This document shows positions 36,410-57,749 of a stretch of DNA of 64,000 nucleotides, piece by piece. The stretch is taken from NCBI RefSeq assembly GCF_025999835.1, contig NZ_AP025628.1:372001-436000 (forward strand), in the 5' to 3' direction. Source of the stretch: Caldinitratiruptor microaerophilus. Its GTDB lineage: Bacteria > Bacillota > Sulfobacillia > Symbiobacteriales > ZC4RG38. Made by a program: the position numbers and the translations under genes. A model generated the notes under the pieces. It did no database searches. It saw only the letters and a list, made by a program, of their open reading frames with translations, and was not told where the DNA came from. Every line of letters starts with the position of its first letter. Positions within the stretch are counted from its first letter, which is position 1.

Positions 36410-36474
36410 GCGACAGGTCTGTATTGTGGACTTGCGACTCCCAGCACCGGCCTTTCCGGCAGGGGGAACACAGT

Positions 36475-38631: not shown

Positions 38632-38656
38632 CAGAAGGGACACGAGGATTAAGGAA

Positions 38657-38902: not shown

Positions 38903-38931
38903 TTGACAGCCGAAGCTAAGGTGTGCATAAT
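38903..38931 (+). promoter_or_regulatory. Promoter of the cas5c-cas8c-cas7c-cas4-cas1-cas2 operon
   Basis: TTGACA at 38903-38908 and CATAAT at 38926-38931 are 17 bases apart. The start site would be near 38938, giving a leader of about 160 bases before cas5c. It points away from the guide-RNA promoter. Confidence 0.85.
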
Positions 38932-38943
38932 GGAACCTGATCC

Positions 38944-38966
38944 TTCGTTGGGCTGGTGTGTGCAAG
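38944..38966 (+). promoter_or_regulatory. Predicted Cascade target site with TTC PAM in the cas operon leader
   Basis: TTC at 38944-38946, the canonical type I-C PAM, is followed at 38947 by GTTGGGCTGGTGTGTGCA. This matches 16 of the first 18 bases of the spacer-like segment of the minus-strand guide RNA; the mismatches are at positions 6 and 12 only. Position 19 also mismatches and pairing then fades. The site begins about ten bases after the predicted transcription start, where bound Cascade would block RNA polymerase. Partial pairing would favour binding without cleavage. Confidence 0.8.
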
Positions 38967-39098
38967 GGCGCATCCAAACCTGCCGGTACACACAGGATCG
39001 ACCCGTGTGGCTCCTCTGACCTGTCCCGGATCATGACCACACCACAACTGTCAGGAGCGAACGCCGGCTCAGCCCTTTGACCGAAGGAGGTGAGACAC

Positions 39099-39746
39099 TT
39101 GAGCACGTGGCCTCCGCTGGAGGTGAAGGTGTGGGGCGACTACGCCTGTTTCACTCGACCCGAGACGAAAGTCGAGCGGGTTTCCTACCCCGTCGTGACG
39201 CCCTCTGCTGCCCGCGGCATCCTTGAGGCTATTTTCTGGAAGCCCGAATTCGCGTGGCGCATTCGAGAGATTTGGGTACTCCGCCCCATCCGGTACGTAT
39301 CGATGGTGCGGAACGAGGTGAACTCGAAAATTTCCTTTGCCGCCGCGCAGCGTTGGATGGCAAATGGCGGTGGTTTCTTCGCAGACGAGGATCGGGCTCA
39401 ACGACACACCCTAGCACTCTACAACGTGGCCTACGTCATTCGAGCCGATGTCGAGCCGCGTTCCGGTACTGCTGCCGATATCGCCAAGTACAGGGATCAG
39501 TTCCGGCGTAGGGTCCGACGCGGGGAGTGTTTCCACCGGCCGTATCTAGGCACGCGGGAATTTGCTGCTTTCTTCGGACCGCTGGATGGTACCGAAACAC
39601 CCATCGACTACAGTGCTCCGTTGGGCAGGATGCTGTTTGACCTCGAGTACGAAAAGGACGGGTCTGGGCGCGGGACTCCTCGCTTCTTCGAGGCAAGCCT
39701 CGACCGTGGTGTCTTGCGCGTGCCCCCGGACCTGTATGGGGGGTGA
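39099..39746 (+). CDS. cas5c: Cas5c (Cas5d), pre-crRNA endoribonuclease of type I-C
   Basis: In type I-C, which lacks Cas6, Cas5c cuts the repeat and stays on the 5' handle. The 215-residue product begins LSTWPPLEVKVWGDYACFTRPETKVERVSYPVVTPSAARGILEAIFW, a clear Cas5c start with the RAMP fold, and contains RPIRYVSMVRNEVN. The TTG at 39099 lies nine bases after AAGGAGG; GTG at 39090 in the same frame would overlap the ribosome site and is less likely. The C-terminus overlaps cas8c by four bases. It would also have to process the degenerate-repeat guide RNA encoded upstream. Confidence 0.94.
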   Translation: MSTWPPLEVKVWGDYACFTRPETKVERVSYPVVTPSAARGILEAIFWKPEFAWRIREIWVLRPIRYVSMVRNEVNSKISFAAAQRWMANGGGFFADEDRAQRHTLALYNVAYVIRADVEPRSGTAADIAKYRDQFRRRVRRGECFHRPYLGTREFAAFFGPLDGTETPIDYSAPLGRMLFDLEYEKDGSGRGTPRFFEASLDRGVLRVPPDLYGG

Positions 39747-41470
39747 AATACGCCATGCTCTTACAGCGGCTGAACGAGTATGCGGATCGGTTGCGGCTGC
39801 CGCCACCGATGTACGGCCCCACCGCGGTTCGCTGGGTGATCCACCTTGATACCGACGGGCGAATGTTGCAGATGGTCGAGACAACCGGCGGGACCACGAA
39901 AAGTACACAGCGGGGCAAAGTAATGTTGACGCCGCAGATCGGGCGAACAGTAGCGATTCGAGCCAAGTTACTTGCTGACAACGGTGAGTACGTTCTAGGC
40001 ATTCCCCGCAAGCCTGAGGACGCAGACAAGGTGGTGTTGCGTCACCGAGCTTTTATAGACCTAGTTCGTGAATGCGCCCTCGCCACGGGAGAGCTCACGG
40101 TGAAGGCCGTTCTACAGTTCCTCGAGGGATTGCCGCATGGTCTTCGCTTGCCCAGCGGCTTCGATCCGGCGGATAACATCACCTTCGAGGTCGCTGGGAT
40201 CCGTCCCATTGACTTGCCGGTTATCCAACGCTTTTGGGCCAAGCGCGCGGGCGCGGAGAAGGAGAATGCGGACGACGATACTGGCCGGGTCGCCACGTGC
40301 TTGGTTTGCGGCGAATTAAAGCAAGTTGTCGCGCGGCTACCCTTCAAGCTAAAGAGCATTCCGGGAGGACAAACCTCTGGAATTGCCCTCGTCTCCGCCA
40401 ATGCACCAGCGTTCGAGTCCTATGGCCTCGAAGCCTCGCATGTCGCACCGATTTGCCACCAGTGTGCTGAGCGGACCCACAAGTCGATAAATGCGCTCCT
40501 GGCCGACCCTAACACGCATCTGGTCGTCGGTCCGATCGTGTACGTGGCGTGGACACGGGAGCCTGTGGAGCAGAATTTCTTGAATCTTCTCTCGCGTCCG
40601 GATCCTGCCGAAGTTCGTGCCTTGATTGCTTCCGTATACACGGGCCGAGCGGGTTCCCTAGAACTGGATGACACGCAGTACTACGCGGTGGCCTTCTCTG
40701 CCAGCGGTGGACGAGCGGTCGTACGCGATTGGCTTGATACAACGGTGGGGGAAGTGAGACGCAATCTTGCCCGCTTCTTCATGCTACAACGTATCATCGG
40801 TCCAGATGGCAACGAGCCCGCGCCCCTCGGGATCTTCGCCTTGTCCGCAGCAGCTGTTCGGGATGCCTCGCGGGACCTACCTCCAGAGCTTCCCAAGGCG
40901 TTGATTCGATGCGCGTTGGCCGGGACGTGGATTCCCAGCTGGATCCTTGCCCAGGCAATCAGGCGAGCCCGCGTGGAACAGCGGGTGACCCGTCAGCGTG
41001 CGGCTCTAATCCGTTTGTCCTATCTCTCCTACATGCGGATCGAAAAGGAGGATGAGTTGATGCAGTTGGATCGTACGCAGAGAGATCCGGCTTACCACTG
41101 CGGCCGCCTTCTCGCTGTTCTTGAGGAAATCCAGCACGCGGCCGTACCGGGTGCAAAGGCCACGCTATTGGACCGATTCTACGGTGCTGCTTCCGCAAGC
41201 CCAGCCACCGTTTTCGGAACTCTCTTCCGTACCGCCCAGTCGCACCTGGGTAAGCTGCGTAAGGACCGTCCGCGCCTTTACAACGTGTTCCAGCAACGAC
41301 TCATGGAAGTACAGGAATCGATCACGTACTTCCCGGCAACGTTGAACCTCGGGGAACAGGCACTTTTCACTCTTGGCTACTACCACCAGCGGGCGGCCGA
41401 TCTGGCCGCCGCCAGGGCTCGCTCTCAGAAAGCGGAAGATACGGAAACCGACGAGTCTGATGACGAGTGA
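39743..41470 (+). CDS. cas8c: Cas8c (Csd1), large subunit of type I-C Cascade
   Basis: PAM-recognising large subunit, 575 residues. It starts MKYAMLLQRLNEYADRLRLPPPMYGPTAVRWVIHLD, as in Csd1. A zinc-binding element with CLVCGE (Cys186/189) and CHQCAER (about 237/240) stands in the middle and LVVGPIVYVAWTREP follows. The C-terminal helical part is also made separately as Cas11c from an internal start. The GTG at 39743 overlaps the cas5c stop (GTGA). The acidic tail EDTETDESDDE is noteworthy but probably harmless. Confidence 0.95.
   Translation: MKYAMLLQRLNEYADRLRLPPPMYGPTAVRWVIHLDTDGRMLQMVETTGGTTKSTQRGKVMLTPQIGRTVAIRAKLLADNGEYVLGIPRKPEDADKVVLRHRAFIDLVRECALATGELTVKAVLQFLEGLPHGLRLPSGFDPADNITFEVAGIRPIDLPVIQRFWAKRAGAEKENADDDTGRVATCLVCGELKQVVARLPFKLKSIPGGQTSGIALVSANAPAFESYGLEASHVAPICHQCAERTHKSINALLADPNTHLVVGPIVYVAWTREPVEQNFLNLLSRPDPAEVRALIASVYTGRAGSLELDDTQYYAVAFSASGGRAVVRDWLDTTVGEVRRNLARFFMLQRIIGPDGNEPAPLGIFALSAAAVRDASRDLPPELPKALIRCALAGTWIPSWILAQAIRRARVEQRVTRQRAALIRLSYLSYMRIEKEDELMQLDRTQRDPAYHCGRLLAVLEEIQHAAVPGAKATLLDRFYGAASASPATVFGTLFRTAQSHLGKLRKDRPRLYNVFQQRLMEVQESITYFPATLNLGEQALFTLGYYHQRAADLAAARARSQKAEDTETDESDDE
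41060..41470 (+). CDS. cas11c: Cas11c small subunit from an internal start in cas8c
   Basis: Inside cas8c and in the same frame, AAAAGGAGG (41043-41051) stands eight bases before an ATG at 41060. Translation from it gives 136 residues, MQLDRTQRDPAYHCGRLLAV and following, covering the helical C-terminus of Cas8c. Type I-C Cascades are known to contain Cas11c made this way from within cas8c, and the position and length agree. Two copies would line the non-target-strand side of the complex. The ribosome binding site is as strong as those of the separate genes. Confidence 0.8.
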   Translation: MQLDRTQRDPAYHCGRLLAVLEEIQHAAVPGAKATLLDRFYGAASASPATVFGTLFRTAQSHLGKLRKDRPRLYNVFQQRLMEVQESITYFPATLNLGEQALFTLGYYHQRAADLAAARARSQKAEDTETDESDDE

Positions 41471-41496
41471 ATTCGTCAAGAGAGGGAGGAGACCAA

Positions 41497-42408
41497 ATGT
41501 CCGTGCACCTGGACCCCGAAAGGCGCCACGATTTCGTAATACTGTTTGATGTCACCGACGGTAACCCGAATGGAGATCCCGATGCCGGGAACCTGCCGCG
41601 CGTCGACCCGGAGACCATGCAGGGCCTGGTGACTGACGTATCCATCAAGCGGCGGATACGCAACTGGGTCGATGCCACGCGGGGCACAGAGGAACGCATG
41701 AAGATCTACGTTCAGACTCGAGGCGAAGCCCTCAACGACTTGCACCAGCGGGCGTATGACGCGTTGGGCCTCCGGTCCACGGGGGCTCGGCAGGACCGCG
41801 AAACCGTCGAACAAGCCCGTGCGTGGATGTGCTGGAACTTTTGGGACATCCGTACGTTCGGTGCGGTGATGACCACAGGGGTCAATTGCGGTCAGGTGCG
41901 CGGTCCAGTGCAGCTAACGTTTGCCCGCTCCATCGACCCAATCGTACCTCTCGACCTCGCGATCACTCGGGTAGCGGTCACGCGCGCCGAGGACGCCAAG
42001 GTTGTGGTCGGTGACGAAGGTGTGGGCGAGTCCGGCGGTAAGACGACGGAGATGGGACGCAAGGCGATCGTGCCCTACGGGCTGTACAAGGGCTACGGCT
42101 TCGTAAACCCGATCTTTGCCCGCCAGACTGGGTTCAGTAAAGAAGACCTCGACCTCTTCTGGACTGCGCTCATCATGTGCTGGGACCTTGATCGATCGTC
42201 CAGTCGGGGAAGGATGGCCTGCCGCGGACTATACGTGTTCACGCATGATTCGCCCTTGGGAAAGGCCCCCGCCCACACTTTACTGGACCGGGTCCGGGTC
42301 CAACGTCGGGACGGTGTGGTATCCCCGAGAAGCTTTGGTGACTACACGGTTGTCGTCGATGACAAGGACCTGCCTGACGGAGTCACCCTTACTCGGCTGG
42401 TGGGGTGA
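41497..42408 (+). CDS. cas7c: Cas7c (Csd2), Cascade backbone
   Basis: RAMP protein that polymerises along the crRNA spacer, 303 residues. DFVILFDVTDGNPNGDPDAGNLPRVDPET at the N-terminus is the Csd2 signature, followed by GLVTDVSIKRRIRNWVD and FWDIRTFGAVMTTGVNCGQVRGPVQLTFARSIDPI, all well conserved in the family. The ATG at 41497 follows AGGGAGGAG; an open frame from 41467 overlaps cas8c and is not preferred. Its thumb insertion flips every sixth base of the crRNA, the property that makes the mismatch pattern of the candidate autoregulatory site meaningful. Confidence 0.96.
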   Translation: MSVHLDPERRHDFVILFDVTDGNPNGDPDAGNLPRVDPETMQGLVTDVSIKRRIRNWVDATRGTEERMKIYVQTRGEALNDLHQRAYDALGLRSTGARQDRETVEQARAWMCWNFWDIRTFGAVMTTGVNCGQVRGPVQLTFARSIDPIVPLDLAITRVAVTRAEDAKVVVGDEGVGESGGKTTEMGRKAIVPYGLYKGYGFVNPIFARQTGFSKEDLDLFWTALIMCWDLDRSSSRGRMACRGLYVFTHDSPLGKAPAHTLLDRVRVQRRDGVVSPRSFGDYTVVVDDKDLPDGVTLTRLVG

Positions 42409-43067
42409 GGGCAGTGGTTACGGGCGCCGTCCCTGATGAGTACTGGGTCCCCATCTCGGCCCTGCAGCACTACTCATACTGCCCACGGCAGTGTGCGCTG
42501 ATCCACCTTGAGCAGACCTTCGATGAGAACCTGTACACGCTCCGAGGTCGCGCCGTCCACGAGCGTGTCGACGTTCCGGGGGTAGCCGTCGAAGCTGGCG
42601 TCCGAATTGAACGCGGGCTTGTACTCTGGTCGGACCGATTGGGCCTCGTTGGTAAGGCCGATGTGGTTGAGTTTCACGGCGAGGTCCCCTACCCTGTCGA
42701 GTACAAGCACGGTTCGCGCAGAGCTTCGGAACACGACGACCTTCAGCTATGTGCTCAGGCTCTCTGCCTCGAGGAGATGCTCGGGGTCCCTGTGCCCAGG
42801 GGAGCGATTTACCACCACAGTTCGAGACACAGGCGTGAGGTTGTGTTTACACCAGAGTTGCGAGAACGTGTGACGGTTGTCTTGCAAGAGGTGCGGGCGC
42901 TGTTGAGCGCCCGACTTTTGCCTCCTGCCGTTAACGATACCCGTTGTCCCCGGTGCTCCCTAATCGACTCATGTCTACCTCGACCGGTCCAGGACAGGCG
43001 GCGAATAGAAGACCTTTTGCAGGAGGTGTTCAACACCGGTTTAGAGGAGGGAGAAACCAGTGCTTGA
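42405..43067 (+). CDS. cas4: Cas4 exonuclease (adaptation)
   Basis: Fe-S cluster nuclease of 220 residues that selects and trims prespacers by PAM. One Cys is in HYSYCPRQCALIHLEQ at the N-terminus and three more in RCPRCSLIDSC near the C-terminus, together the four cluster ligands. The RecB-like nuclease core has GKADVVEFHG and PVEYKHGSRR (Asp, Glu, Lys), then QLCAQALCLEEM. The GTG at 42405 overlaps the cas7c stop by four bases (GTGA) and the end overlaps cas1 by eight. Everything needed for activity seems present. Confidence 0.95.
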   Translation: MRAVVTGAVPDEYWVPISALQHYSYCPRQCALIHLEQTFDENLYTLRGRAVHERVDVPGVAVEAGVRIERGLVLWSDRLGLVGKADVVEFHGEVPYPVEYKHGSRRASEHDDLQLCAQALCLEEMLGVPVPRGAIYHHSSRHRREVVFTPELRERVTVVLQEVRALLSARLLPPAVNDTRCPRCSLIDSCLPRPVQDRRRIEDLLQEVFNTGLEEGETSA

Positions 43068-44091
43068 ACTCCTCAATACGCTCTATGTTACAACCCCCGG
43101 CGCGTATGTAAGGCTCGATCATGAAACAGTTCGGGTGGAGGCCGATGGTGCCAAGCTGCTGCAGGTTCCTGTCTTGCACCTGCGCGGTATCGTCTGCTTC
43201 GGCAACGTGATGGTAAGCCCGGCCGTGATGCAGCGGTTTGCTCAGGATCGGCGGTCTGTTGTGTTCTTGGACGACCGCGGCAGGTTTGCGGCTCGGGTCC
43301 AAGGACCCACAGCCGGGAACGTGCTCCTGCGGTGGGAGCAATACGAAGCAGCACGCTCTCTAGCACGGAGCGCAGCGATCGCCAGGGCAATTGTCGGTGG
43401 CAAAATTCAGAACGCCAGGTTCCTGTTACAGAGAGCGGCTCGGGAGACGCCAGACTCAGCCGAGTCCAAGACGCTACGCGACTGCGTTGCCGATCTCGCC
43501 GGAATACTGGAGCGCCTGAAAGCAGCCTCCGAGATCAATGTGATCCGTGGCCTGGAGGGAGAGGCAGCGAGACGCTACTTTGGTTCCTGGGATTTGATGA
43601 TTAAACGAGATCGCCAGGCCTTCGCCCTCCAGGGCCGGCAGCGGCGTCCCCCTACGAATCCGATGAACGCACTCCTTTCTTTCCTGTACACGTTGTTAAC
43701 GGGCGAATGCATAGCCGCAGCCGAAGGAGTTGGGCTTGATCCACAGATTGGCTACCTGCACGAGCTTCGCCCCGGCCGGCCAGCTCTCGCCCTTGACCTC
43801 GTTGAGGAACTAAGACCCTCAGTGGCGGATCGCCTTGCGATTGCCCTGATCAACCTGCGCCAGGCAACGTCGGACGACTTCGTGACCCGCCCCGGAGGGG
43901 CCATCCACTTGAGCGACGCGGGCCGCAAGAAAGTGATAGTAGCTTATGAGAGGCGCAAGCAAGAGCAGGTATACCATCCGGTACTGGACCGCAAGGTTCC
44001 TATAGGTCTGATCCCCCATGTTCAAGCGCGTCTGCTTGCTCGCCATCTTCGTGGCGACTTGGACCATTACGTACCTTGGCTGTATCGGTAG
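43060..44091 (+). CDS. cas1: Cas1 integrase (type I-C)
   Basis: Spacer integrase of 343 residues. It begins LELLNTLYVTTPGAYVRLDHETVRVEADG, the N-terminal beta-domain of I-C Cas1, and the catalytic domain holds an acidic residue in AAAEGVGLDPQIGYLHELRPGRPALALDLVEELRP (Glu, His and Asp of the metal site). The GTG at 43060 lies inside the end of cas4 after TAGAGGAGGGAG. With Cas2 and Cas4 it would insert spacers at the leader end at 44587, next to cas2. Confidence 0.96.
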   Translation: MLELLNTLYVTTPGAYVRLDHETVRVEADGAKLLQVPVLHLRGIVCFGNVMVSPAVMQRFAQDRRSVVFLDDRGRFAARVQGPTAGNVLLRWEQYEAARSLARSAAIARAIVGGKIQNARFLLQRAARETPDSAESKTLRDCVADLAGILERLKAASEINVIRGLEGEAARRYFGSWDLMIKRDRQAFALQGRQRRPPTNPMNALLSFLYTLLTGECIAAAEGVGLDPQIGYLHELRPGRPALALDLVEELRPSVADRLAIALINLRQATSDDFVTRPGGAIHLSDAGRKKVIVAYERRKQEQVYHPVLDRKVPIGLIPHVQARLLARHLRGDLDHYVPWLYR

Positions 44092-44106
44092 GGTGGTGCC
44101 GACCTC

Positions 44107-44397
44107 GTGCAGATCGTTGTGGCCTACGACGTCAATACAGAGACAGCGGCAGGCCGTCGTCGGTTGCGTAAAGTGGCTCAGATCTGCCTTAACTTCGGCC
44201 AGCGCGTACAAAAGTCCGTCTTCGAATGTCAGGTCAATCAAGCACAGCTTGAGCAACTCATCCGCCAGCTACGGAACGAGATTGACGAAGGGGAAGATAG
44301 TCTTCGGCTGTACAGGATCATGGAGCCGAGGGACAGGCACACTTACGCCTACGGCATCCAACACGTTCTCGATTTCCAAGAGCCACTAATCTTGTGA
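44107..44397 (+). CDS. cas2: Cas2
   Basis: Structural partner of Cas1 in the integrase complex, 96 residues. QIVVAYDVNTETAAGRRRLRKVAQICLNFGQRVQKSVFEC is the ferredoxin-like N-terminus with the conserved Asp in AYDV, and LRLYRI follows. The start is a GTG at 44107. It is the last gene of the operon; the array leader begins immediately after. Confidence 0.96.
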   Translation: MQIVVAYDVNTETAAGRRRLRKVAQICLNFGQRVQKSVFECQVNQAQLEQLIRQLRNEIDEGEDSLRLYRIMEPRDRHTYAYGIQHVLDFQEPLIL

Positions 44398-44586: not shown

Positions 44587-45202
44587 GTTGCACCCGGCCT
44601 CGCGGCCGGGTGAGGATTGAAACCAGCTTTACCTCGACAAGATCGGCGAGTTGCCCGAGTTGCACCCGGCCTCGCGGCCGGGTGAGGATTGAAACCAGGC
44701 CAGGAGCGCGATCAACCGCTACGTGGTTGCCGTTGCACCCGGCCTCGCGGCCGGGTGAGGATTGAAACGAGGCCGGCGACATCGACATCGACCCGGCCGA
44801 CGACGTTGCACCCGGCCTCGCGGCCGGGTGAGGATTGAAACCAGGGAAAGGACTGGAAGGTTACGGTATCTCTGCAGGTTGCACCCGGCCTCGCGGCCGG
44901 GTGAGGATTGAAACCGCGTGAAGTCGGCCTATCGCATGGGCGGCCTCGACGTTGCACCCGGCCTCGCGGCCGGGTGAGGATTGAAACGAGACCTGGCCGG
45001 ACGCTGCGCTGACCGCCGCCCTGGTTGCACCCGGCCTCGCGGCCGGGTGAGGATTGAAACCGGACCTGGCCACCCCGGTTCACCAGCCAGTTGTAACGTT
45101 GCACCCGGCCTCGCGGCCGGGTGAGGATTGAAACGGCGCCATCTTCTTGGGGTATACGGGGTCCATCGAGTTGCACCCGGCCTCGCGGCCGGGTGAGGAT
45201 TG
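44587..45202 (+). CRISPR. CRISPR array, leader-proximal block (9 repeats, last one cut by IS21)
   Basis: Nine copies of a 37-base repeat that begins GTTGCACCCGGCCTCGCGG and ends CCGGGTGAGGATTGAAAC, with spacers of about 35-37 bases. The inner part is a palindrome (CACCCGGCC TCGC GGCCGGGTG). Repeat starts are 44587, 44659, 44732, 44805, 44878, 44951, 45024, 45098 and 45170. The ninth is broken after GGATTG by the IS21 element at 45203 and resumes at 47414. Orientation is set by the degenerate far end and by cas2 at this side. Confidence 0.97.
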
Positions 45203-45267
45203 TGTCAACGCCGGCTTACTTTTGACCCACTGGGGCCGGTTGGGAAATGACCCACCCCCCAGGCGAA

Positions 45268-46068
45268 TCACTCCTTCGGTGGTTCGGTGGGGAGGCCTCC
45301 GGGGTGAGGCGGTACGGTGGTGAAGAGGCCGGCCCGCTTCTTGTCGCGGAGGCGGTAGGACTCCCCGCGGATGTTGAGTACGTGGCTGTGGTGCAGGAGG
45401 CGGTCCAGGATGGCGGTGGCGATCACCGCGTCCCCCAACACCTCCCCCCACTCGGCGAAGCCTTTGTTGGACGTCAGGATGACGCTCCCACGCTCGTACC
45501 GGGCGGAGATCAACGCGAACAGTGCCGTAGCGGCCGCCCGGTCGTAGGGCCAGACCCCGAACTCGTCGATGATCAGCACCTTCGGGGCCAGGTAGACCCG
45601 CATGCGGCGGTCGAGGCGGTGCTCGGCCTGCGCCCGGCGCAGGTCTTCGAGCAGGTCGTGGGCCCGGACGAAGTAGACGCCATAGCCCTGTTCGATGGCC
45701 CGGATCCCCAGGGCCACCGCCAGGTGAGTCTTCCCCACCCCGGGCGGACCGAGGAAGATCACGTTGGCGGCGTCGGCGACAAAGGCCAGGGTCGCCAGCT
45801 CACGGACCTGACGCTCGTCGATGGACGGCTGGAAGCGGAAGTCGAACTGTTCGAGGGTGCGGTAGTAGGGCAGGTGGGCAAGGCGTGTGCGGGTGCGCAG
45901 GTACCGCTCCCGCCGGGCGGCCGCTTCGACGCCCAGCAAGTCGGCCAGGAACTCGGCGTACGGGAGCTGCTTCTGAGCTGCCGCCTCCAGCCGGCTCTCC
46001 AGCACGGCGGCTGCCTGGACCAGGCCGAGTTGCTCCAGGTACTGCCGGGACTTCTCCAAGGCGATCAT
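45268..46068 (-). CDS. istB: IS21 helper ATPase IstB
   Basis: AAA+ helper of IS21 transposition, 266 residues. An N-terminal helical region (QYLEQLGLVQAAAVLESRLEAA) is followed by Walker A FLGPPGVGKTHLAVALG, KVLIIDEFGVWPYD (Walker B) and SVILTSNKGFAEWGEVLGD (sensor 1), then LDRLLHHSHVLNIRGESYRL, the C-terminal IstB motif. The ATG at 46068 overlaps the istA stop by four bases (ATGA), the standard arrangement. Complete. Confidence 0.96.
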   Translation of the reverse strand: MIALEKSRQYLEQLGLVQAAAVLESRLEAAAQKQLPYAEFLADLLGVEAAARRERYLRTRTRLAHLPYYRTLEQFDFRFQPSIDERQVRELATLAFVADAANVIFLGPPGVGKTHLAVALGIRAIEQGYGVYFVRAHDLLEDLRRAQAEHRLDRRMRVYLAPKVLIIDEFGVWPYDRAAATALFALISARYERGSVILTSNKGFAEWGEVLGDAVIATAILDRLLHHSHVLNIRGESYRLRDKKRAGLFTTVPPHPGGLPTEPPKE

Positions 46069-47288
46069 CCGGCGACCACCGCCCCCACGAGCGCCTCGTA
46101 GGCCGCCAGCGGCCGGCGCTCGACCTCAACGGTGGGCAGCTGGACCGCCAAGGCCTCCTTGGACGGCCGTCCGTCGCCAGCCTGAAGGCCCGCCCACTGA
46201 CGGGGGTGCGTGAGCCGCTGGCCCCTTTGAGTGGCCCGGGCATGCACGGCGAGGCGCTTGCCCCCGTCCCAGAGCTCAACGATCCCATCCCGGGGCTGGA
46301 CCTGCACCACCTGGCCGGGCTTCCATGGCCAGGGAAGGCCATACCAGGCGTTCTCCCACTGGACGTACCCGTCCCGGCCCACGTGCCGCTCTTCCCGCAG
46401 GAAGACCTCGAGCCGTTGGGGGCTCGGGAGGGGCTGCAGGTGCTCCCGTTCAATGCGCAGCCGGTCGACCGGCCGCTCGTGGGTCGTCCCATGCACCCGG
46501 ACGTCCGCCACGGTGTCGCACCACTGGGCCGCCTGCTGGTTCAGGTCCGCCAGGTCCACAAACCGCACGCCGGGCCAGAAGTTGCGCTTGACGTACTTGA
46601 TCCCGCTCTCCACGCGCCCCTTCGTTTGGGGCCGGTACGGGTGGCAGAGCCGGATGTCGAAACCCACCCGCAGGGCGAAGTCCAGGAAGCGAGGGTTCCA
46701 GACAGGTTGGTCGTGCTCATCCCGCTCCAGGACGACCACCTTGGTGTTGTCATACAGGCACCGGCGGGGTACGCCCCCGAACCGGGCGAACGCATTCAGG
46801 TGGCAGCGGATGAACGTGGCGACGTCCGCTCGCCGAACGAACTCGACGTAGATCGCCCGAGACCAACTCAGCACCATGACGAAGACCCAGACCCGCTGCG
46901 TCTTGCCGTCCGGGGTCTTGTACTTGAGAAGGCCGAAGTCCACCTGGGCCTGTTCCCCCGGCCGGGTCTCGAAGCGGACCGTCGCCTGGGGCTCTCGGCG
47001 CCGGCGCAGCGGCTGGACGAACTCACGAAGGATCGTATGGCCGCCGGTATAACCCTGTGCACGGATCTCCCGGAGCAATACGGTGCAATTGTCGACTCCC
47101 TCGCCCACTCGCTGGAGGATATACTCCTTGTAGGGGTCCAGCTTGGAGGCCCGCTGTGGCCGTGGCGCCGGCTTGGGCACCTCGGGAGAGCGCAAGTACT
47201 TTCGGATCGTGTTCCGGGAAACACCCAACATGCGGGCGATGGCCCGGATGGACTTGCCCTCCCCGTGCAACTCGTAAATGCGCTTCAC
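46065..47288 (-). CDS. istA: IS21 transposase IstA
   Basis: DDE transposase of 407 residues from the GTG at 47288, which follows GAGGGGTGG; an ATG at 47375 in the same frame would add 29 residues but lacks a ribosome site. The helix-turn-helix KSIRAIARMLGVSRNTIRKYL is followed by the rve integrase domain with QAQVDFGLLKYK (first Asp), PRRCLYDNTKVVV (second Asp) and KGRVESGIKYVKRNF (Glu). The C-terminal part has WYGLPWPWKPGQVVQVQ. It is intact and presumably active. Confidence 0.94.
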   Translation of the reverse strand: MKRIYELHGEGKSIRAIARMLGVSRNTIRKYLRSPEVPKPAPRPQRASKLDPYKEYILQRVGEGVDNCTVLLREIRAQGYTGGHTILREFVQPLRRRREPQATVRFETRPGEQAQVDFGLLKYKTPDGKTQRVWVFVMVLSWSRAIYVEFVRRADVATFIRCHLNAFARFGGVPRRCLYDNTKVVVLERDEHDQPVWNPRFLDFALRVGFDIRLCHPYRPQTKGRVESGIKYVKRNFWPGVRFVDLADLNQQAAQWCDTVADVRVHGTTHERPVDRLRIEREHLQPLPSPQRLEVFLREERHVGRDGYVQWENAWYGLPWPWKPGQVVQVQPRDGIVELWDGGKRLAVHARATQRGQRLTHPRQWAGLQAGDGRPSKEALAVQLPTVEVERRPLAAYEALVGAVVAG

Positions 47289-47413
47289 TTTCCCACCCCT
47301 CAGCACGTTCTCTGGACACCCCCGACTCTTGGCGGAATCGGAAGGTGTCTTCGCTGGGGGGTGGGTCAATTCCATTCCGGCGCTACTGGGTCAGTTTAGC
47401 ACCGGCGCTGACA

Positions 47414-50400
47414 ATTGAAACGAGCGACTGCAGGCCCAGCAGGAGGAGGCATACCGAGTTGCACCCGGCCTCGCGGCCGGGTGAGGATTGAAACGACCTT
47501 GGCGACGGTGAGCGGCTCGGACGGCACCTGGTTGCACCCGGCCTCGCGGCCGGGTGAGGATTGAAACCGGTTGCAGTAGGCGAGGCCGGCAAGCCACACG
47601 CGTTGCACCCGGCCTCGCGGCCGGGTGAGGATTGAAACCGTGCCAGCTCTGCCGCGACGAGAGACCCATCGCCCAGTTGCACCCGGCCTCGCGGCCGGGT
47701 GAGGATTGAAACCGCGATCACCCCCCCTTACCCATGGGGAGGGGGGCGCGTTGCACCCGGCCTCGCGGCCGGGTGAGGATTGAAACAAGCAGGGGGCTCG
47801 TAACACGTGGGAGGCCCTGCGGGTTGCACCCGGCCTCGCGGCCGGGTGAGGATTGAAACGTGCAAAAGGTATATTCGAGACAACATGGCGATGAAGGTTG
47901 CACCCGGCCTCGCGGCCGGGTGAGGATTGAAACCCGTTATCGACACGGCAACCAACGTGGCGGCCAGGGTTGCACCCGGCCTCGCGGCCGGGTGAGGATT
48001 GAAACCCTCCTTTCCTGCAAGGCCATCATCGCCCGCGGGCCGAGTTGCACCCGGCCTCGCGGCCGGGTGAGGATTGAAACCGGGCTATCAGGTGCGGGAC
48101 ACCTCGGTAGGCGCCACGTTGCACCCGGCCTCGCGGCCGGGTGAGGATTGAAACTCTCGTTCCGGTGCTTGAGTTGCAGCACCTCGACCACGTTGCACCC
48201 GGCCTCGCGGCCGGGTGAGGATTGAAACCTGCGCGGACCGACGCCCCCGGGGAGACCCTGAAATTGTTGCACCCGGCCTCGCGGCCGGGTGAGGATTGAA
48301 ACCATCTGCTCGTAGGTCTGCCGCAGCTCGTCGGCCTCGTTGCACCCGGCCTCGCGGCCGGGTGAGGATTGAAACTGCCATCTCCCATTCCACCGCCTTC
48401 CGCAGCATATCGTTGCACCCGGCCTCGCGGCCGGGTGAGGATTGAAACGTCACGGACTATGCCCGTGTGCTCCGGCTCCCCTACTATGTTGCACCCGGCC
48501 TCGCGGCCGGGTGAGGATTGAAACTTGCCGAGGCTGTCGAGTTGCGACAGGGACTGCAGGTTGCACCCGGCCTCGCGGCCGGGTGAGGATTGAAACTACC
48601 AGGGCGATCGAACCATGGTGTGCGGCACCTGCGTTGCACCCGGCCTCGCGGCCGGGTGAGGATTGAAACTACCAGGGCGATCGAACCATGGTGTGCGGCA
48701 CCTGCGTTGCACCCGGCCTCGCGGCCGGGTGAGGATTGAAACGCCAGTTGGAGTGGGTCGATCTCGTCGAAGTACTGCCAGGTTGCACCCGGCCTCGCGG
48801 CCGGGTGAGGATTGAAACCCGTAGGCGACAGCCATGCGGGTCTGGATGGCGGGGTTGCACCCGGCCTCGCGGCCGGGTGAGGATTGAAACCTGGATTGGC
48901 TCTGGTAGAGGGAGCGCCTCCGCGGAAGTTGCACCCGGCCTCGCGGCCGGGTGAGGATTGAAACCTGACGAAGCGCCTTAACGTCTGGCCCCAGCAGGCC
49001 AGTTGCACCCGGCCTCGCGGCCGGGTGAGCATTGAAACAAGATCAACCGGACGGACGTCGGGGCCACCCGGGGGTTGCACCCGGCCTCGCGGCCGGGTGA
49101 GGATTGAAACCCGTCGAGGTGGGCCGGTGTGCTCTCCATCGCCTGTTGCACCCGGCCTCGCGGCCGGGTGAGGATTGAAACCCGGAGCCTGCGGACCACC
49201 TCCCGGAGCACGGCCGGGAGAGGATTGAAACTGGCTCGTGGCCGCGAACCCGCGCTACGACCCGATCCCCGTTGCACCCGGCCTCGCGGCCGGGTGAGGA
49301 TTGAAACCGCTCTGCGCCCCACGTGGATAGCGGCGCTGCCGGAGTTGCACCCGGCCTCGCGGCCGGGTGAGGATTGAAACTCGTACAACCGGAAGAAGTG
49401 CGCCCGGTCTGCGGCGGTTGCACCCGGCCTCGCGGCCGGGTGAGGATTGAAACAGCCGCCGGCGGATCTTGAGCTTGGTCCGGCGCCGGTTGCACCCGGC
49501 CTCGCGGCCGGGTGAGGATTGAAACGTCCAGGCCATGGGAGCCAAGCAGCCCGAGGCGGGCAAGGTTGCACCCGGCCTCGCGGCCGGGTGAGGATTGAAA
49601 CGTGCGCGCTCCCTGCCGCACCTCGCCGGCCGCGGCGGCGTTGCACCCGGCCTCGCGGCCGGGTGGGGATTGAAACCAGCCAGGTGCGCTCCACCTCAGG
49701 ATGCTCGCGCGTTGCACCCGGCCTCGCGGCCGGGTGAGGATTGAAACAGGTTGCCGGCCGGGTCCTGCCGGACGGCCGCCGAGTGTTGCACCCGGCCTCG
49801 CGGCCGGGTGAGGATTGAAACGGGCCATCGAAAAGGGCTGGTCGCCGCAGGACCTGGGTTGCACCCGGCCTCGCGGCCGGGTGAGGATTGAAACAGCCCG
49901 GGGAGCAAGACCTACGTCCCTCAGGGTCCTGACGGGTTGCACCTGGCCTCGCGGCCGGGTGAGGATTGAAACGTGTCGAGGGCGAGGAAGTCGGCCTCCT
50001 CGTCGGTCGTTGCACCCGGCCTCGCGGCCGGGTGAGGATTGAAACCTGGTCCTCCGTGGGAAGCCCCGCCCGGCGCCGGTTGTTGCACCCGGCCCCGCGG
50101 CCGGGTGAGGATTGAAACTCCCACGGCGCCACGGCCCGGTTGCGCGGCGGCACGTTGCACCCGGCCTCGCGGCCGGGTGAGGATTGAAACTGGGCGATGC
50201 CGCCAGCGATAGTACAACGTCCGATGTTGCGCCCGGCCTCGCGGCCGGGTGAGGATTGAAACGTCGTACGGATGTGCGCATAGGGTGGAGAGGTCTCGTT
50301 GCAGCCGGCCTCGCGGCCGGGTGAGGATTGAAACGTTTCCGGGCCGGGCAGACCCCGGACGGTGAGCCCCGTTGCACCCGGCCTCGCGGCCGGGTGAGGA

Positions 50401-50844
50401 TTGAAACATCGGACCGACTTGGCAGCGGGCGCAGGAACTGCCGTTGCACCCGGCCTCGCGGCCGGGTGAGGATTGAAACCGGCCATGGTCCGCACGGCGG
50501 TGCAGGCCGGCATGGTTGCACCCGGCCTCGCGGCCGGGTGAGGATTGAAACTGGTTCGGGACGGAGTTCCGGCCGCGCCTGCTCGAGTTGCACCCGGCCT
50601 CGCGGTCGGGTGAGGATTGAAACTCAGCCGCGTTGCAGTGGATTGAGACGAACAGGTCGGGTTGCACCCGGCCTCGCGGCCGGGTGAGGATTGAAACTGG
50701 TCGCGCAACTACGGCGAGCGTGTGGCCATCCGCGGGTTGCACCCGGCCTCGCGGCCGGGTGAGGATTGAAACAAGGACGCCTGGGAAAACATCTGGCGCC
50801 GCTCGCTGTTGCACCCGGCCTCGCGGCCGGGTGAGGATTGAAAC
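47414..50844 (+). CRISPR. CRISPR array, middle block (about 47 repeats)
   Basis: After the end of the split repeat (ATTGAAAC, 47414-47421), repeats continue from 47458 to the one starting at 50808, at a spacing of about 73 bases. Nearly all are identical; single-base variants stand at 49002, 49640, 49936, 50082, 50226, 50298 and 50587. A truncated repeat (49211-49231) retains only the 3' 21 bases. Two neighbouring spacers, at 48597-48632 and 48670-48705, are identical. The long frames seen on either strand here are by-products of the repeats. Confidence 0.97.
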
Positions 50845-50925
50845 TTTGCTGCCTTCTTACGCCCCTCGCTGCAGGAGTTACGCAACTCCGGTTTCTGAGA
50901 GGCCGAAAAGGTGGGTTGGAGCAGG
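50845..50925. other. Non-array junction segment left of the second transposon
   Basis: The first 36 bases could be one more spacer, but the following 45 (CGCAACTCCGGTTTCTGAGA onward) do not resemble the repeat. The segment has a short inverted pair GGAGTT/AACTCC. The 5' half of the repeat that resumes at 54512 is missing, so sequence was lost or exchanged here. Confidence 0.6.
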
Positions 50926-51058
50926 TGTTTTCGCCCACGTTATTTGTCGCCGCGTTGACCGGAGTGGTTGGCGCTGGAAGGGGACCAGGAGATAGGTGTG
51001 GAAGAGCCTGGGGAGGTCGAGCCTCCCCGTTTTCGCGTGGGAGGTGGAAATAAAGACA

Positions 51059-51099
51059 CCTGCCCCGGGCCGAATTTCCCAGCCGAGCCCCGGGGCAGG
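51059..51099 (-). terminator. Hairpin at the transposon's left side
   Basis: CCTGCCCCGG (51059-51068) and CCGGGGCAGG (51090-51099) form a 10-bp stem. On the minus strand it is followed by TGTCTTTATTT, so it could end transcripts leaving the element to the left; it might also shield the first gene from outside transcripts. Confidence 0.5.
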
Positions 51100-51120
51100 C
51101 TTCAGAGGAGTTACCTCTGC

Positions 51121-51735
51121 GTGTCCATCATACTGCCCCTTGCGGTCTCAGTCAAAGCGTACTTACGCCGGTACGGCCGTGACGGGCCCGCACTGGCGCT
51201 TCGTTGTGCAGGCTGCGGCCGGCAGATGCGGAAACATGGCGCCCACCATCGGTCGGCGGTCACTCGCCGGCGCATCTACCGCATTCCCATCTACCGCTGG
51301 TTCTGTCCCCGGTGCAAGCACACGTGCTCGGTCTTGCCGGACTTTCTACGTCCGTACGCCCGCTTTGTCACGCTGCTGCGGGAAGTGGTCGTGCGCCGGC
51401 GCCTTCAGCGAGGAAGGTCGTGGAGGGATCTCACCTGGGAAATCAGTTCACCGGCGGTCAGTGTGGTGTCGGAGCGCACGCTGCGCCGGTGGGTGCGCAC
51501 GGTTCGCAGTATCGCGGGGAATTGGGGACAGTTCCTGACCGCCTGGCTGCTGGAACAGCGACCCGCCGTCGACGTTTTCACGCTGGTCCCCCGCCACGAG
51601 GGTCCCGACGCCACCTTTCATTTTTTGCTCGCGCTGGGTGACTGGCTCCGGCGGCAGATGTCCGTGGACCCTGCCCGCCACCGTGGGCTGTTTGCGTTCC
51701 TGAACGGCTTTTGCGAGGCCCCGGCGCCTCTGTGA
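51121..51735 (+). CDS. DUF6431-like zinc-binding protein of the transposon
   Basis: A 204-residue protein from the GTG at 51121 (after AGAGGAG); an open frame to 50968 crosses the hairpin and is less likely. CAGCGRQMRKHGAHHR and FCPRCKHTCSVLPDFL give two CxxC pairs, a probable zinc ribbon, followed by a helix-turn-helix-like helical part (WRDLTWEISSPAVSVVSERTLRRWVRTV). Proteins of this type accompany transposase/ATPase pairs in Firmicutes elements and probably bind the ends or the target. The function is inferred from context. Confidence 0.75.
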   Translation: MSIILPLAVSVKAYLRRYGRDGPALALRCAGCGRQMRKHGAHHRSAVTRRRIYRIPIYRWFCPRCKHTCSVLPDFLRPYARFVTLLREVVVRRRLQRGRSWRDLTWEISSPAVSVVSERTLRRWVRTVRSIAGNWGQFLTAWLLEQRPAVDVFTLVPRHEGPDATFHFLLALGDWLRRQMSVDPARHRGLFAFLNGFCEAPAPL

Positions 51736-51830
51736 GGTACGGCTCCCCCCCACCACAAACTTTGTCCCTCCCGGCTGGCTCGGCGTGCCGGCCATAATGG
51801 CGGCAACGACGCCAGCAGGGGAGGGATTCC

Positions 51831-53216
51831 ATGGACGAGCAGCAGCGGGAAGAGATCGCCACGTTCCGCTGGAGCCTCATCGCCCCCGTACTGACCCAGA
51901 ACCTGAGCCCGTCCGAGCGCCAGCGCCTGTTGCGGGAGATCGCCGGGCACCCGCACGAGATCCCTTCCAGTGACAAGACCCGAGTCGGGCTCAGGACGCT
52001 GCAGCGCTGGGTCCAGGCCTACCGGCAGCACGGGTTCGAGGGGCTCAAACCGCACACCCGGGCGGATGCGGACCAGGGCCGGGCCGTTCCCCCGGAGGTC
52101 CTGGAAGCGGCGATCGCCTTGCGGCGGGCGGTGCCCGACCGTAGTGTGCAACAGATCATCGCCTTGCTCGAGCTGGACGGAAAGGTCGCACCCGGGCGTC
52201 TCAAACGCACCACCCTGGGCCGCTACCTGGCCCGGGCAGGCTGCACCCGCCAGGAGTTGCGCAGCAAAGCCGCCCGGAGTTTGCTCCGCCGGTTTGAGGC
52301 CCAACACCGCAACGACCTGTGGCAAGGAGACGTCCTGCACGCCCTGTCGCTGCCGGTGCCGGGACAACCCGGGAAGCGGCGCCAAGTCTACCTCATGGCT
52401 TTCCTCGACGACCATAGCCGAGTCGTTTACGGCCAGATGTATTTCGAGGAGAAGCTCCCCCGCCTGGAGGACTGCCTCAAACGCACCATCCTCCGCTACG
52501 GCCTGCCCCGCCAGATCTACGTGGACAACGGGGCGATCTACTCCACCCGCCACCTGGCCCGGATCTGCGCCAAGCTCGGGATCCGCCTCAGCCACTCCCG
52601 CCCCTACCGACCCCAGGGGCGGGGAAAGGTTGAAAAGTTTTTCCAGTACGTCCGCCGCAGCTTTGTACCCGAAGCGCACGCGCTGGTCGAAGCCGGCCAG
52701 CTCCGCACCCTGGACGAACTCAACGAGTTCTTCTGGGCCTGGCTCGAGGTGGCCTACCTCAGTCGCCCCCACGGCAGCACCCACCAGACCCCCCGCCAGC
52801 GGTTCGAGGCGGACACCGAGCCCTTGCGCCGCATCGACCCTACGGCCCTGCGGGAGGTGTTCCTCTGGGAGGAGCAGCGGGTCGTCGACAAGACCGGATG
52901 CTTCTCCCTGCATGGGAACCGCTACGAGGTCGACGCCGCCCTCAGCGGCCACCGGGTGCTCCTGCGCTACGACCCCTACGACCTCAGCCAGATCCAGGTC
53001 TGGCACGAGGGAAAGCGTTTCCCGGACGCTGCCCCCCTCCAGCTCCGCCGCACTCACCACCACGCCGTCCCTGCCCCGGCCCAACCCCCGTCCAGCGACG
53101 GGATGAACTTCCTCACCCTGGCCCGCAAGCACCACGAGGCCGAGAAGCAGCGCCGCCTGGGTCAGACCTCTTACGCTCGCCTGGTCGGCCACAAGGACGG
53201 TGAGCCGTCACGCTGA
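51831..53216 (+). CDS. DDE (Mu/IS481-like, rve) transposase
   Basis: Transposase of 461 residues. The N-terminal part contains helix-turn-helix segments (TLQRWVQAYRQHGFEGLKPHTRAD; SVQQIIALLELDGKVAPGRLKRTTLGRYLARAG). The catalytic core has WQGDVLHALSLP (Asp), QIYVDNGAIYS (Asp) and GRGKVEKFFQYVRRSF (Glu), the D,D(35)E set. The C-terminal Mu-type beta-barrel holds KTGCFSLHGNRYEVDAALSGHRVLLRYDPYDL. The ATG at 51831 follows GCAGGGGAGGG. The stop overlaps the possible CTG start of the ATPase. Confidence 0.94.
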   Translation: MDEQQREEIATFRWSLIAPVLTQNLSPSERQRLLREIAGHPHEIPSSDKTRVGLRTLQRWVQAYRQHGFEGLKPHTRADADQGRAVPPEVLEAAIALRRAVPDRSVQQIIALLELDGKVAPGRLKRTTLGRYLARAGCTRQELRSKAARSLLRRFEAQHRNDLWQGDVLHALSLPVPGQPGKRRQVYLMAFLDDHSRVVYGQMYFEEKLPRLEDCLKRTILRYGLPRQIYVDNGAIYSTRHLARICAKLGIRLSHSRPYRPQGRGKVEKFFQYVRRSFVPEAHALVEAGQLRTLDELNEFFWAWLEVAYLSRPHGSTHQTPRQRFEADTEPLRRIDPTALREVFLWEEQRVVDKTGCFSLHGNRYEVDAALSGHRVLLRYDPYDLSQIQVWHEGKRFPDAAPLQLRRTHHHAVPAPAQPPSSDGMNFLTLARKHHEAEKQRRLGQTSYARLVGHKDGEPSR

Positions 53217-54046
53217 CCGAGTACTTCGGCCTCAAAGCGGTGCCCTTCGCCAGGGAGATTCCCACCGACCGGCTGTTCCCCGCTCCCCAGCACCAGGAAC
53301 TGCTTGCTCGCCTCCAGTACGCCATCCGCCACCGCGCGTTCGCGGTCGTCACGGGTGAGGTCGGCGCCGGGAAGTCCACCGCCATCCGGGCCCTGTACGA
53401 TCAGCTCGACCGGACCCGCCACCTGTTCGTGTACATCGCCGACTCCCGTCTCACCCCCAGCGCGTTCTACCGAGACGTGCTCACCCAGCTTGGGGTGGCC
53501 CCGCCTTCTCTGTTCCACGGGCGGGAGGTGAAACGGCTTTTCGAGCGCACCATCCTGGACGGTTACACCACCAACGGCCGTCAGCCAGTGATCGTCATCG
53601 ACGAGGCCCACCTCCTCAGCGGCGCCATGCTCCAGGAGGTCCGCTTCCTCCTGAACTTCCACATGGACTCCATCTCGCCGCTGACGTTCATCCTCGCCGG
53701 CCAGAGCGAACTCCGGGGGCTGCTCCGGCTTCGCACCTTCGAGGCCATCGCCCAGCGGGTTCAGGTGCGCTTCCACCTCACCGGCCTCGGGGAGGCCGAG
53801 ACTCTGGCCTACATCCAGCACCATCTCCACCTGGCCGGCGCCGACCGGCCCCTCTTCTCCGAGCAGGCCCTGCGCAAGATCGTCACGGAGTCCCGGGGCA
53901 TCCCGCGGGTCATCAACACGATCTGCACGAGCTGCCTCCTGGACGCTTGCGCCCATGACCAGCGCCTAGTGGAGGAGGCCCACGTCGAGCGGGTGCTGCT
54001 CGAGCTGCAGGATACCCAGGCCCCCAGAGGAGGTAGCCCGTGGTGA
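53213..54046 (+). CDS. ExeA/TniB-like AAA ATPase of the transposon
   Basis: Helper ATPase that would select the target, 277 residues. It starts (CTG)TEYFGLKAVPFAREIPTD, matching the usual TEYFGxxxxPF start of this family; no ATG, GTG or TTG exists in frame between the preceding stop at 53201 and 53240, so either this CTG, after AGGACGGTGAG, or the GTG at 53240 is used. The CTG overlaps the transposase stop (CTGA). Walker A is VTGEVGAGKSTAIRAL, Walker B VIVIDEAHLL, sensor 1 FILAGQSELRG; SRGIPRVINTICTSCLLDA is the C-terminal signature. Confidence 0.9.
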   Translation: MTEYFGLKAVPFAREIPTDRLFPAPQHQELLARLQYAIRHRAFAVVTGEVGAGKSTAIRALYDQLDRTRHLFVYIADSRLTPSAFYRDVLTQLGVAPPSLFHGREVKRLFERTILDGYTTNGRQPVIVIDEAHLLSGAMLQEVRFLLNFHMDSISPLTFILAGQSELRGLLRLRTFEAIAQRVQVRFHLTGLGEAETLAYIQHHLHLAGADRPLFSEQALRKIVTESRGIPRVINTICTSCLLDACAHDQRLVEEAHVERVLLELQDTQAPRGGSPW

Positions 54047-54366
54047 CAGATTCTGGCCTGCAACACGCCGGGGTTTCGCTGCGGCTTTACGGGTACGAGA
54101 TCACCGACCTGCTCGACCTGCTGGAGGCCGCCATCCGGCAGGCCACGACCGGAGATGGGGTCCGGCGCGGCCAGGCGGTCACGGCGTTCATCCTGAGTTA
54201 CCGTCTGCTCCACCGGTTACGGAACCTGAAGAGCCGGCCCACGTGCCGGCTCGACCTTCCCGTCTTCCGGTACATCGAGGACTACGAGGCTTGGTGGTGG
54301 CGCCTCTACCGGGAGTTCGTTCACAGCCCCGGGGTCAACCACCCGTACGGCCCCGGCGGATTCTAG
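54040..54366 (+). CDS. Small transposon-encoded protein, unknown
   Basis: A 108-residue protein whose GTG start at 54040 overlaps the end of the ATPase gene, after AGAGGAGG. It is mostly helical (ITDLLDLLEAAIRQATTGDGVRRGQAVTAFILSYRLLHRLRNLK) with an aromatic C-terminus (YIEDYEAWWWRLYREF). I do not recognise a family. Position as fourth gene of the element suggests an accessory role in transposition. Confidence 0.6.
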   Translation: MVTDSGLQHAGVSLRLYGYEITDLLDLLEAAIRQATTGDGVRRGQAVTAFILSYRLLHRLRNLKSRPTCRLDLPVFRYIEDYEAWWWRLYREFVHSPGVNHPYGPGGF

Positions 54367-54511
54367 TGGCTGCCGGCCCTGCATTTCGGACTCTGGGGCG
54401 CATCCTTACCACGGGCTGCGCCCCTTCAGCGCCAGTGGGCCGGTCACATCTCATGAACGGCCATGACATCGTCGCTGGTCACCGGAGCGACAAATAACGC
54501 GGTCAGCAACA

Positions 54512-55329
54512 CCGGGTGAGGATTGAAACAGCGCCCGATACATCACCATGAGCCCCGTCGGCGAGTTGCACCCGGCCTCGCGGCCGGGTGACGATTGAAA
54601 CTTCGGCTCGTACGCCTGGGCGACACGGGCCGTCGTGTTGCACCCGGCCTCGCGGCCGGGTGAGGATTGAAACCGTACGTGCCCGGATTGCGGCAGGATA
54701 CTTTGCCCGCAGTTGCACCCGGCCTCGCGGCCGGGTGAGGATTGAAACCTGCGCCAGATCGTGGCCAAGTACGAAGGGACCCGGTTGCACCCGGCCTCGC
54801 GGCCGGGTGAGGATTGAAACGGGTCATGAACCTCAGCTACTACGCGGACGTGCGCGCCAAGGGTTGCACCCGGCCTCGCGGCCGGGCGAGGATTGAAACG
54901 TTGCGTGTCAAGCTCACGATCTATGCGTTGTCGGCGTTGCACCCGGCCTCGCGGCCGGGTGAGGATTGAAACTCCAGGATCTCCTTCACGGAGTACGTGT
55001 GCCAGTACGAGTTGCACCCGGCCTCGGGGCCGGGTGAGGGATTGAAACTAGGGTACGGCAAAGTCTGGAGCTTGTCCAGGAGGGCCTGCACCCGACCTCG
55101 CGGCCGGCTGAGGATTGAAACCTGTCAGAAGCCGGTTACGAAGGCCACAACCTGCAAGTTGCACCCGGCCTCGCGGCCGGGTGAGGATTGAAACTCCCGC
55201 GCCTCCGTCGCCTATAAGTCGGACGGCACGTTGCACCCGGCCTCGCGGCCCGGTGAGGATTGAAACAATTGCGCCATCGATGTTGATCCGCGGATACGCT
55301 GTTCCACCCGGCCTCGCGGCGGGGTGAGG
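54512..55329 (+). CRISPR. CRISPR array, leader-distal block with decaying repeats
   Basis: Begins with the 3' 18 bases of a repeat (CCGGGTGAGGATTGAAAC) directly after the transposon, then about 11 repeats starting at 54565, 54637, 54712, 54784, 54863, 54936, 55011, 55084, 55158, 55230 and 55301. Variants accumulate: an extra base in the 55011 copy, several changes at 55084, and a last copy (55301-55329) that has lost GGATTGAAAC. Decay toward this end marks it as the old end of the array. The 245 bases after it, 55330-55574, hold nothing I can identify. Confidence 0.95.
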
Positions 55330-55574
55330 CGGCTGCCCCTCGAGCGTGAACCAGCGAGAGTGGCGGAGGACACGTGTCTTCGGGCTCGTGACTGTAGAGT
55401 TCCCGCACGGATCACCATACGCTGCGGGACGCACGAGCGAACGTGGATACGGCTGCGGCGGGGTCCTCGCGCCCGACGCCGCGGCAGAAGGCACCTGTGG
55501 CCGTTCACTGAGCCTCGCACCGCGGCCGGGCGGGGGGTCACCCGTTCAGGCCGCCTTCCGCGCGGTCACGGTCG

Positions 55575-56879: not shown

Positions 56880-57311
56880 TCAGCCGCTGCGGATCGAGGC
56901 CCTCCAAGGGTGACCGATCAGCCTCATGGTAGCCCGTGGCATGCCCCCTTCACCATGTGGCCACAAGGTGAGGGCCACGGGAGGGCAGTGTCCGCTCCGC
57001 CGGGTTCGTCGTTCCCGTCGCATCCGTGGCCCGGGTGTAGCGTGACTGGCCGGCCGAGGCCGAACGTTTCGCGTACGGGTATCCACGGATCGACCGCCAT
57101 CCGCAACTCCGTGGAAGGGAAACCAGGCGATTCCGTCAGCACGGTGCACGACCTCGGTCCTCACGCGACCGCGGAGCCGTGGCGCTCCGGGGTCTTTTGT
57201 TACCGCTCTTTGGCTTATCAGGAACCGAAACGGACCTTCGGCTCCGCAGGAGGTGGGACTGCGACCGACAAAGTGATCGATGATTCGGCCAACGACCGGG
57301 GAGGTGGGACG
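56880..57311. other. Intergenic stretch between the MFS pseudogene and the XRE fragment
   Basis: About 430 bases without a convincing gene on either strand. It would contain the divergent promoters of the MFS pseudogene and the XRE fragment, but no clear -35/-10 pair was found. Confidence 0.4.
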
Positions 57312-57533
57312 ATGTTCGTCGGCTCTCGGATTCGCGACCTGCGAGCCGAGCGGAACCTGAGCCTGCGGGAGCTGGCGGAACGGGCGGCGGTGTCGTCCTC
57401 GTACCTGAGCGCCATCGAGCGGGGGCTCAAGAAACCGTCCCTACCGATGCTGCGGCAGAAGCCTGACGAAGCGCCTGAGCGTTTGGACCCAGCAGGCCAC
57501 GTATCCACCGATCAACGCCGGTGGGCCAATTGA
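57312..57533 (+). pseudogene. XRE-family regulator, truncated after the HTH
   Basis: The ATG at 57312, after GGGGAGGTGGG, starts a clear Cro/C1-type helix-turn-helix: FVGSRIRDLRAERNLSLRELAERAAVSSSYLSAIERGLKKPSLPML. After about 47 residues the sequence leaves the family (RQKPDEAPERLDPAGHVST) and stops at residue 73. The change point coincides with a segment (57463-57499) that is closely similar to a spacer of the CRISPR array, so the gene's 3' part was probably replaced by a mobile-element remnant. A functional short protein cannot be excluded. Confidence 0.7.
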
Positions 57534-57749
57534 AGCTCCCGGGTGCTCCGGGCGCCGGTCATGCGGGTATTGCAGGGATCAGGCGTCGTGCTCGCAAAGT
57601 AACTTTTCAAACATGCCTTTCGACGGGACCTTTCGATGGGGCCCCGGCGGCGCCGGTGAACCAGGCGGGGCGCCGCCGGCGGTTCGAGCACCTCGGCGAT
57701 GAGGGTGCCCTCACCGGCACAAGGCCACTGGGCTGGCAGGGGAGCGGGC

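Follow-up and report, generated by a model that had tools for sequence, protein, structure and literature searches.

A stretch of 64,000 nt of the Caldinitratiruptor microaerophilus genome (GCF_025999835.1, NZ_AP025628.1, positions 372,001-436,000 of the forward strand), here called the window, was analysed, and all positions below are numbered within it. The whole genome of the organism, which is a single contig of 3,599,694 bases, was searched as well. Pfam and PADLOC searches revealed a type I-C gene set in one locus (36424-44397) comprising cas3, cas5, cas8c, cas7, cas4, cas1 and cas2, and beyond it a CRISPR array, three repeats of which were searched against Rfam and matched family CRISPR-DR9 with 50 bits. 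The array is split by two insertions, an IS21-like element at about 45.2-47.4 kb and an element with a transposase and an AAA-ATPase at about 50.9-54.5 kb; the Pfam domains IstB_IS21, rve/Mu-transpos_C and AAA_22 were found in these insertions. The features discussed here are listed in Table 1.

Table 1. Features of the type I-C locus and of the region beyond the array, in window coordinates
Feature	Position	Strand	Basis
cas3 (type I-C)	36424-38631	+	PADLOC Cas3c, E 1.4e-191; Pfam Cas3 domains
cas5 (I-C)	39090-39746	+	Pfam Cas_Cas5d, E 2.1e-29
cas8c/csd1	39743-41470	+	Pfam Cas_Csd1, E 9.9e-123; PADLOC Cas8c
cas7c/csd2	41467-42408	+	Pfam Cas_Cas7; PADLOC Cas7c
cas4, cas1, cas2	42405-44397	+	Pfam Cas_Cas4, Cas_Cas1, CRISPR_Cas2
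I-C CRISPR array	44587-55337	+	37-nt repeat; array parse
Spacer S30, derived from phage terL (LTKRLNVWPQQA)	48965-49001	+	Array parse; viral motif scan
Spacer S41, fits terL on the other strand, DPAGN motif	49748-49784	+	26/37 in L101 and L103
Spacer S66 (oldest)	55267-55300	+	Resembles 57498-57531, minus strand, 25/34, site preceded by TTC
XRE/HTH_3 regulator gene, truncated within the HTH domain	57312-57461	+	Pfam HTH_3, positions 1-42 of 55
GAAGC directly left of the twin, counterpart of the repeat end GAAAC	57458-57462	+	BLAST alignment; spacing scan
Chromosomal twin of S30 (psi-spacer), terL-like, LTKRLSVWTQQA in the +1 frame of XRE	57463-57499	+	33/37 to S30
Candidate degenerate repeat (psi-R2), 37 nt, ends ATTGAAGC	57500-57536	+	Stem columns 5-11/20-26

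Parsing of the array gave 64 intervals, one of which is a 13-nt artefact beside a damaged repeat; the damage lies at 49182-49270, where this remnant is found together with a repeat intact in its 3' part alone. Two neighbouring spacers, 48597-48632 and 48670-48705, are identical. At the edge of the second insertion lies a 29-nt sequence (50872-50900) with exact copies at four other places in the genome, three of which are spaced 1611 bases and lie just before the window. About 5.2 kb past the array end there is a solitary degenerate CRISPR repeat (60585-60620), recognised by R1, the covariance model of the resident repeat, with 27.9 bits (E 1.5e-6 in 8.6 kb, 6.5e-4 in the genome).

A candidate for a CreR-like autorepressor was found between cas3 and cas5 (38640-38990), and it is a stronger finding than the spacer twin described below. 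On the minus strand, a degenerate repeat at 38756-38727 ending GGGGATTGAAAC (R1 E 0.015; Rfam CRISPR-DR10 E 0.034, below gathering) is followed by the guide GTTGGTCTGGTCTGTGCAGG, whose first 18 bases, positions 6 and 12 excepted, fit the plus strand from 38947/38948, just after TTC. This plus-strand target lies a short way downstream of a TTGACA-17-CATAAT promoter that precedes cas5. For the element itself, no minus-strand promoter was found by pattern scan; a TATAAT was seen by eye. CreR elements are known from type I and V-A systems, according to the part of the literature cited here (PMC12737573).

Ungapped comparison of spacer S30 with the chromosome confirmed the agreement in 33 of 37 positions with a locus beyond the array, hereafter the twin, to which a preliminary description of this DNA had drawn attention. 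The mismatches are at spacer positions 15, 17, 21 and 25. A BLAST search of the whole host genome with the central array (47400-50900) found the twin locus with E 4.9e-7 as the sole significant spacer match outside the arrays, the remaining small E-values belonging to repeats or a transposon end. When the spacers were scanned over the window outside the arrays, the next-best full-length match by fraction was 25/34. Therefore, the agreement between S30 and the twin is real and not due to chance. The 14-mer CTGACGAAGCGCCT at the start of both sequences has two copies in the 3.6-Mb genome, one at each of these sites. S30 and the twin share the reading frame LTKRLN/SVW P/T QQA, in which two of the four differences are silent and two change an amino acid. 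TTC is the PAM of type I-C systems and lies 5' of the protospacer. The three bases before the twin are AGC and not TTC, as first described, and on this flank the view that self-targeting is probably avoided was upheld.

To name the target of S30, viral contigs were scanned with its peptide in a degenerate coding scan, and four matches were obtained, all in TerL-like ORFs that read ...NNF-LTKRLNVWTQQA..., with the Phe codon directly preceding the site. Profile searches, run on two of the four, identified them as large terminase (L004 and L006; PHROG phrog_9, E 7.2e-180 and 1.2e-182, plus Pfam TerL domains); the other two are near-identical to L004. Among 31 related terL loci from a wider search, the codon before the site was TTT in 24, TTC in 6 and GTG in one, which is a poor alignment, and the best identity was 30/37 to S30 and 29/37 to the twin. 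S30 ranked first when the array spacers of at least 30 nt were compared with 69 viral loci. Spacer S41 also fits terL, and in its two best matches (Table 1) the site is preceded by TTC, as is the target of the CreR-like guide; shuffled spacers reached a maximum of 25/37 against the viral loci. It is thus well supported that S30 came from, and is aimed at, a conserved large-terminase motif of tailed phages, and the array very probably has two target sites in terL of this phage family, of which that of S41 is the weaker match. As judged from the anatomy of the locus, S30 would be an ordinary type I-C spacer that guides the I-C Cascade to phage terL, with its PAM supplied by the conserved Phe codon. 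With known type I-C spacers against phage terL it shares the I-C cas set, the 37-nt repeat and the TTT or TTC 5' of the site, and there is nothing unusual in S30 itself; its exact source phage was not found, 30/37 being the best viral match. The common protein-coding mobile element proposed in the preliminary description was therefore correct as to a coding origin in a mobile element, which is a phage large terminase and not the XRE regulator.

The twin lies at the end of an XRE regulator gene that is present in single copy in the genome. Likeness to XRE ends where the match to the HTH_3 profile stops, so that the broken 3' end reported earlier is a true truncation. The XRE N-terminus has relatives at 52 genome loci and 33 viral loci, which are similar mainly in the HTH part. 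The twin agrees with TerL in 12 of 13 residues; an origin of the motif as the 3' end of the XRE gene itself was ruled out, as the motif is read in another frame and the viral scan always gave terminase. The XRE frame at 57414-57515 weakly resembles the TerL C-terminal DPAG motif (E 0.005); the two terL motifs share DNA words, and this resemblance was treated as coincidence.

The terL likeness of the twin spans 13 codons. Its left edge is exactly at the PAM/protospacer edge, its right end is about where a spacer would end, and neither flank resembles terL. Extension of TerL into the flanks was at shuffle level, with 43 of 60 shuffles equalling or exceeding the real sequence downstream and 38 of 60 upstream, and gapped extensions in L102, L114 and L115 were unsupported by shuffles, so that no TerL homology was found beyond spacer length. 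The homology of the twin therefore has the length and the left edge of a protospacer. That it stops at both spacer-length edges points to a spacer or a spacer-sized fragment, and in this respect the earlier proposal did not hold: the twin is not an extended part of some shared element. When the organism's own genome was queried with TerL, the matches were the twin (E 0.19), S30 (E 0.86) and a third place that looks unrelated (E 0.30), thus no other terL was found there. Compared with the TerL consensus, S30 keeps N but has P, and the twin keeps T but has S. Since the two deviate at different residues, neither derives simply from the other, and on these sequences two captures from two phages would fit better than one copied from the other.

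Homology of the twin region to a whole element was also considered and rejected, as database matches were short or none. A blastn search with 57250-57760 gave nothing beyond matches of about 30-45 bases, with E 0.04 or weaker for plasmids and a best E of 0.003 for phages, in a tape-measure gene and with query bases that lie outside the twin; tblastn of a 24-residue peptide gave none in phages and E 7 at best in plasmids. Of the phage and plasmid searches that the preliminary description had proposed, the coding scan thus found phage terL, and blastn and tblastn returned no whole-element relative. Further downstream, a UvrD helicase with a PD-(D/E)XK nuclease domain (57699-60476) was matched in 4 of 61 genomes, its own included (E 1e-40). 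It was probably acquired horizontally on that account, and as it is not conserved in the family, it provides no syntenic comparison.

Both flanks of the twin end in GAAGC, where the array repeat ends in GAAAC, and the BLAST alignment of S30 reaches five bases to the left of the spacer, pairing the two. Pairs of GAA[A/G]C at spacer plus repeat distance occur 12 times in the window, 11 times in the array and once at the twin. In the right flank the outer stem is in the same columns as in the array repeat and 7 of 8 handle bases are kept; the left flank keeps 4 of 8 and has no repeat stem, and it is readable as XRE coding sequence, the left repeat being missing. By criteria for stem and handle that were chosen after inspecting the sequence, the right flank is the sole one of 117,822 37-mers outside the arrays with 7/7 register stem pairs and at least 7/8 handle bases. 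Its identity to the array repeat is 17/37, its fold energy is ordinary against shuffles (z -1.36), R1 did not recognise it in cmsearch, and Rfam found no CRISPR family there. A well-kept psi-spacer beside so diverged a repeat is hard to reconcile with neutral decay. Off-target integration by Cas1-Cas2 with a duplicated target was considered and has no direct support, since by eye the left and right 37-mers differ too much for a recent duplication. In the literature on off-array and non-canonical integration we met no I-C case, and we do not claim that strays of this kind have gone unpublished.

The reading we prefer, to which we give a probability of about 0.55, is that the twin is a stray, decayed spacer-repeat unit outside the array, and inert. 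In this view the same terL protospacer would have been captured again, independently, from a related phage, and the resulting spacer would now sit outside the array, followed on its right by what is left of one repeat, and abut the truncated XRE gene. By the known rules for type I-C, it would escape S30 through the AGC at the PAM position and through flanking bases that are repeat-like, as in the array. The twin is probably inert today and harmless to the cell, as neither a good 5' handle nor a promoter was found for it, no sigma-70-like promoter being predicted.

XRE genes are common phage repressors. In the main rival explanation, which we regard as rather unlikely, the twin is the last terL scrap of a deleted prophage, joined to a truncated XRE gene that was possibly its repressor, and array and chromosome would recall the same phage family. 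The XRE gene does match PHROG phrog_3 and phrog_8, its truncation falls at the junction, and the motif of the twin is as close to TerL as stated above. However, terL similarity is absent past the 13 codons on both sides, the genome has no other terL, and both ends match protospacer edges, which is not required of deletion ends; the repeat-like features at the right would also be left unexplained. The twin may also be a terL scrap that came by chance to lie in a truncated XRE gene. The repeat-like features, stem register and handle, are in turn what would be expected of a functional ectopic crRNA-like gene, whether CreA-, mini-CRISPR- or Racr-like, with the twin and the right hairpin transcribed and loaded into the I-C Cascade. 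Ectopic repeats are described, in the part of the study cited, as having diverged strongly, the first repeat further than the second (PMC9458426), and the same genome holds the strong CreR-like element. Nevertheless we think such a gene improbable: in most two-repeat creA genes, as far as the cited account goes, the better-kept handle is formed by the final 8 nt of the first repeat (PMC8501985), and the twin shows the reverse. No promoter is predicted for it, and a scan of the window for TTC plus seed matches to its guide found nothing near the twin.

We give least credit to the explanation that S30 and S66 target one mobile element spanning 57463-57534, of which the chromosome holds a diverged copy. 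The best window site of S66, with TTC, directly adjoins the twin, and 0 of 237 other window regions reach its match of 25/34 plus TTC for any spacer; without S30, however, 25/34 is near the window yield of other spacers (26/36). The source of S66 was not found in peptide scans, which gave 0, 0, 0 and one match, the latter (L150; 20/34 DNA identity, 27-residue frame) taken as chance. The joined S30-S66 motif was present in no viral contig and, among 398 genomes searched, in its own one alone. The S66 reading also competes with the repeat reading for the same bases, because in the S66 version the stem would be lost.

Returning to a stray spacer-repeat unit, three known systems offer comparison, each to the extent that the cited sources describe it. 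Like creA of CreTA (PMC8501985, PMC9458426), the twin has one spacer-like piece and a diverged repeat-like flank outside an array; unlike creA, it has its handle on the wrong side, its spacer-like piece still reads as terL, and no toxin or promoter target was identified for it. With solitary repeat units, or Racr (PMC10651486), it shares a single repeat-like hairpin outside the array beside an HTH gene, whereas the twin locus has a spacer-sized terL piece before the hairpin and is not in a recognised prophage. In ectopic spacer acquisition of type II-A (PMC7999890), a spacer is likewise placed off the usual leader end, yet still within the array; the twin would be 2 kb past the end of the array. 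There is a small chance that the twin is an orphan spacer-repeat unit in which a captured phage spacer is turning into a crRNA-like RNA gene, with a guide still traceable to terL. Just as tentatively, such a mini-CRISPR with diverged repeats could be the intermediate that is predicted if creA genes degenerate from minimal CRISPRs.

The result for S30 is ordinary but useful, in that the target is now named as terL. The conserved Phe codon of terL would be a recurrent PAM for this I-C system, and independent captures of the same terL spot are therefore to be expected. Should the twin truly be a stray spacer unit, it would exemplify in nature either the placement of a spacer outside the array or the earliest stage in the change of a mini-CRISPR into a crRNA-like gene.
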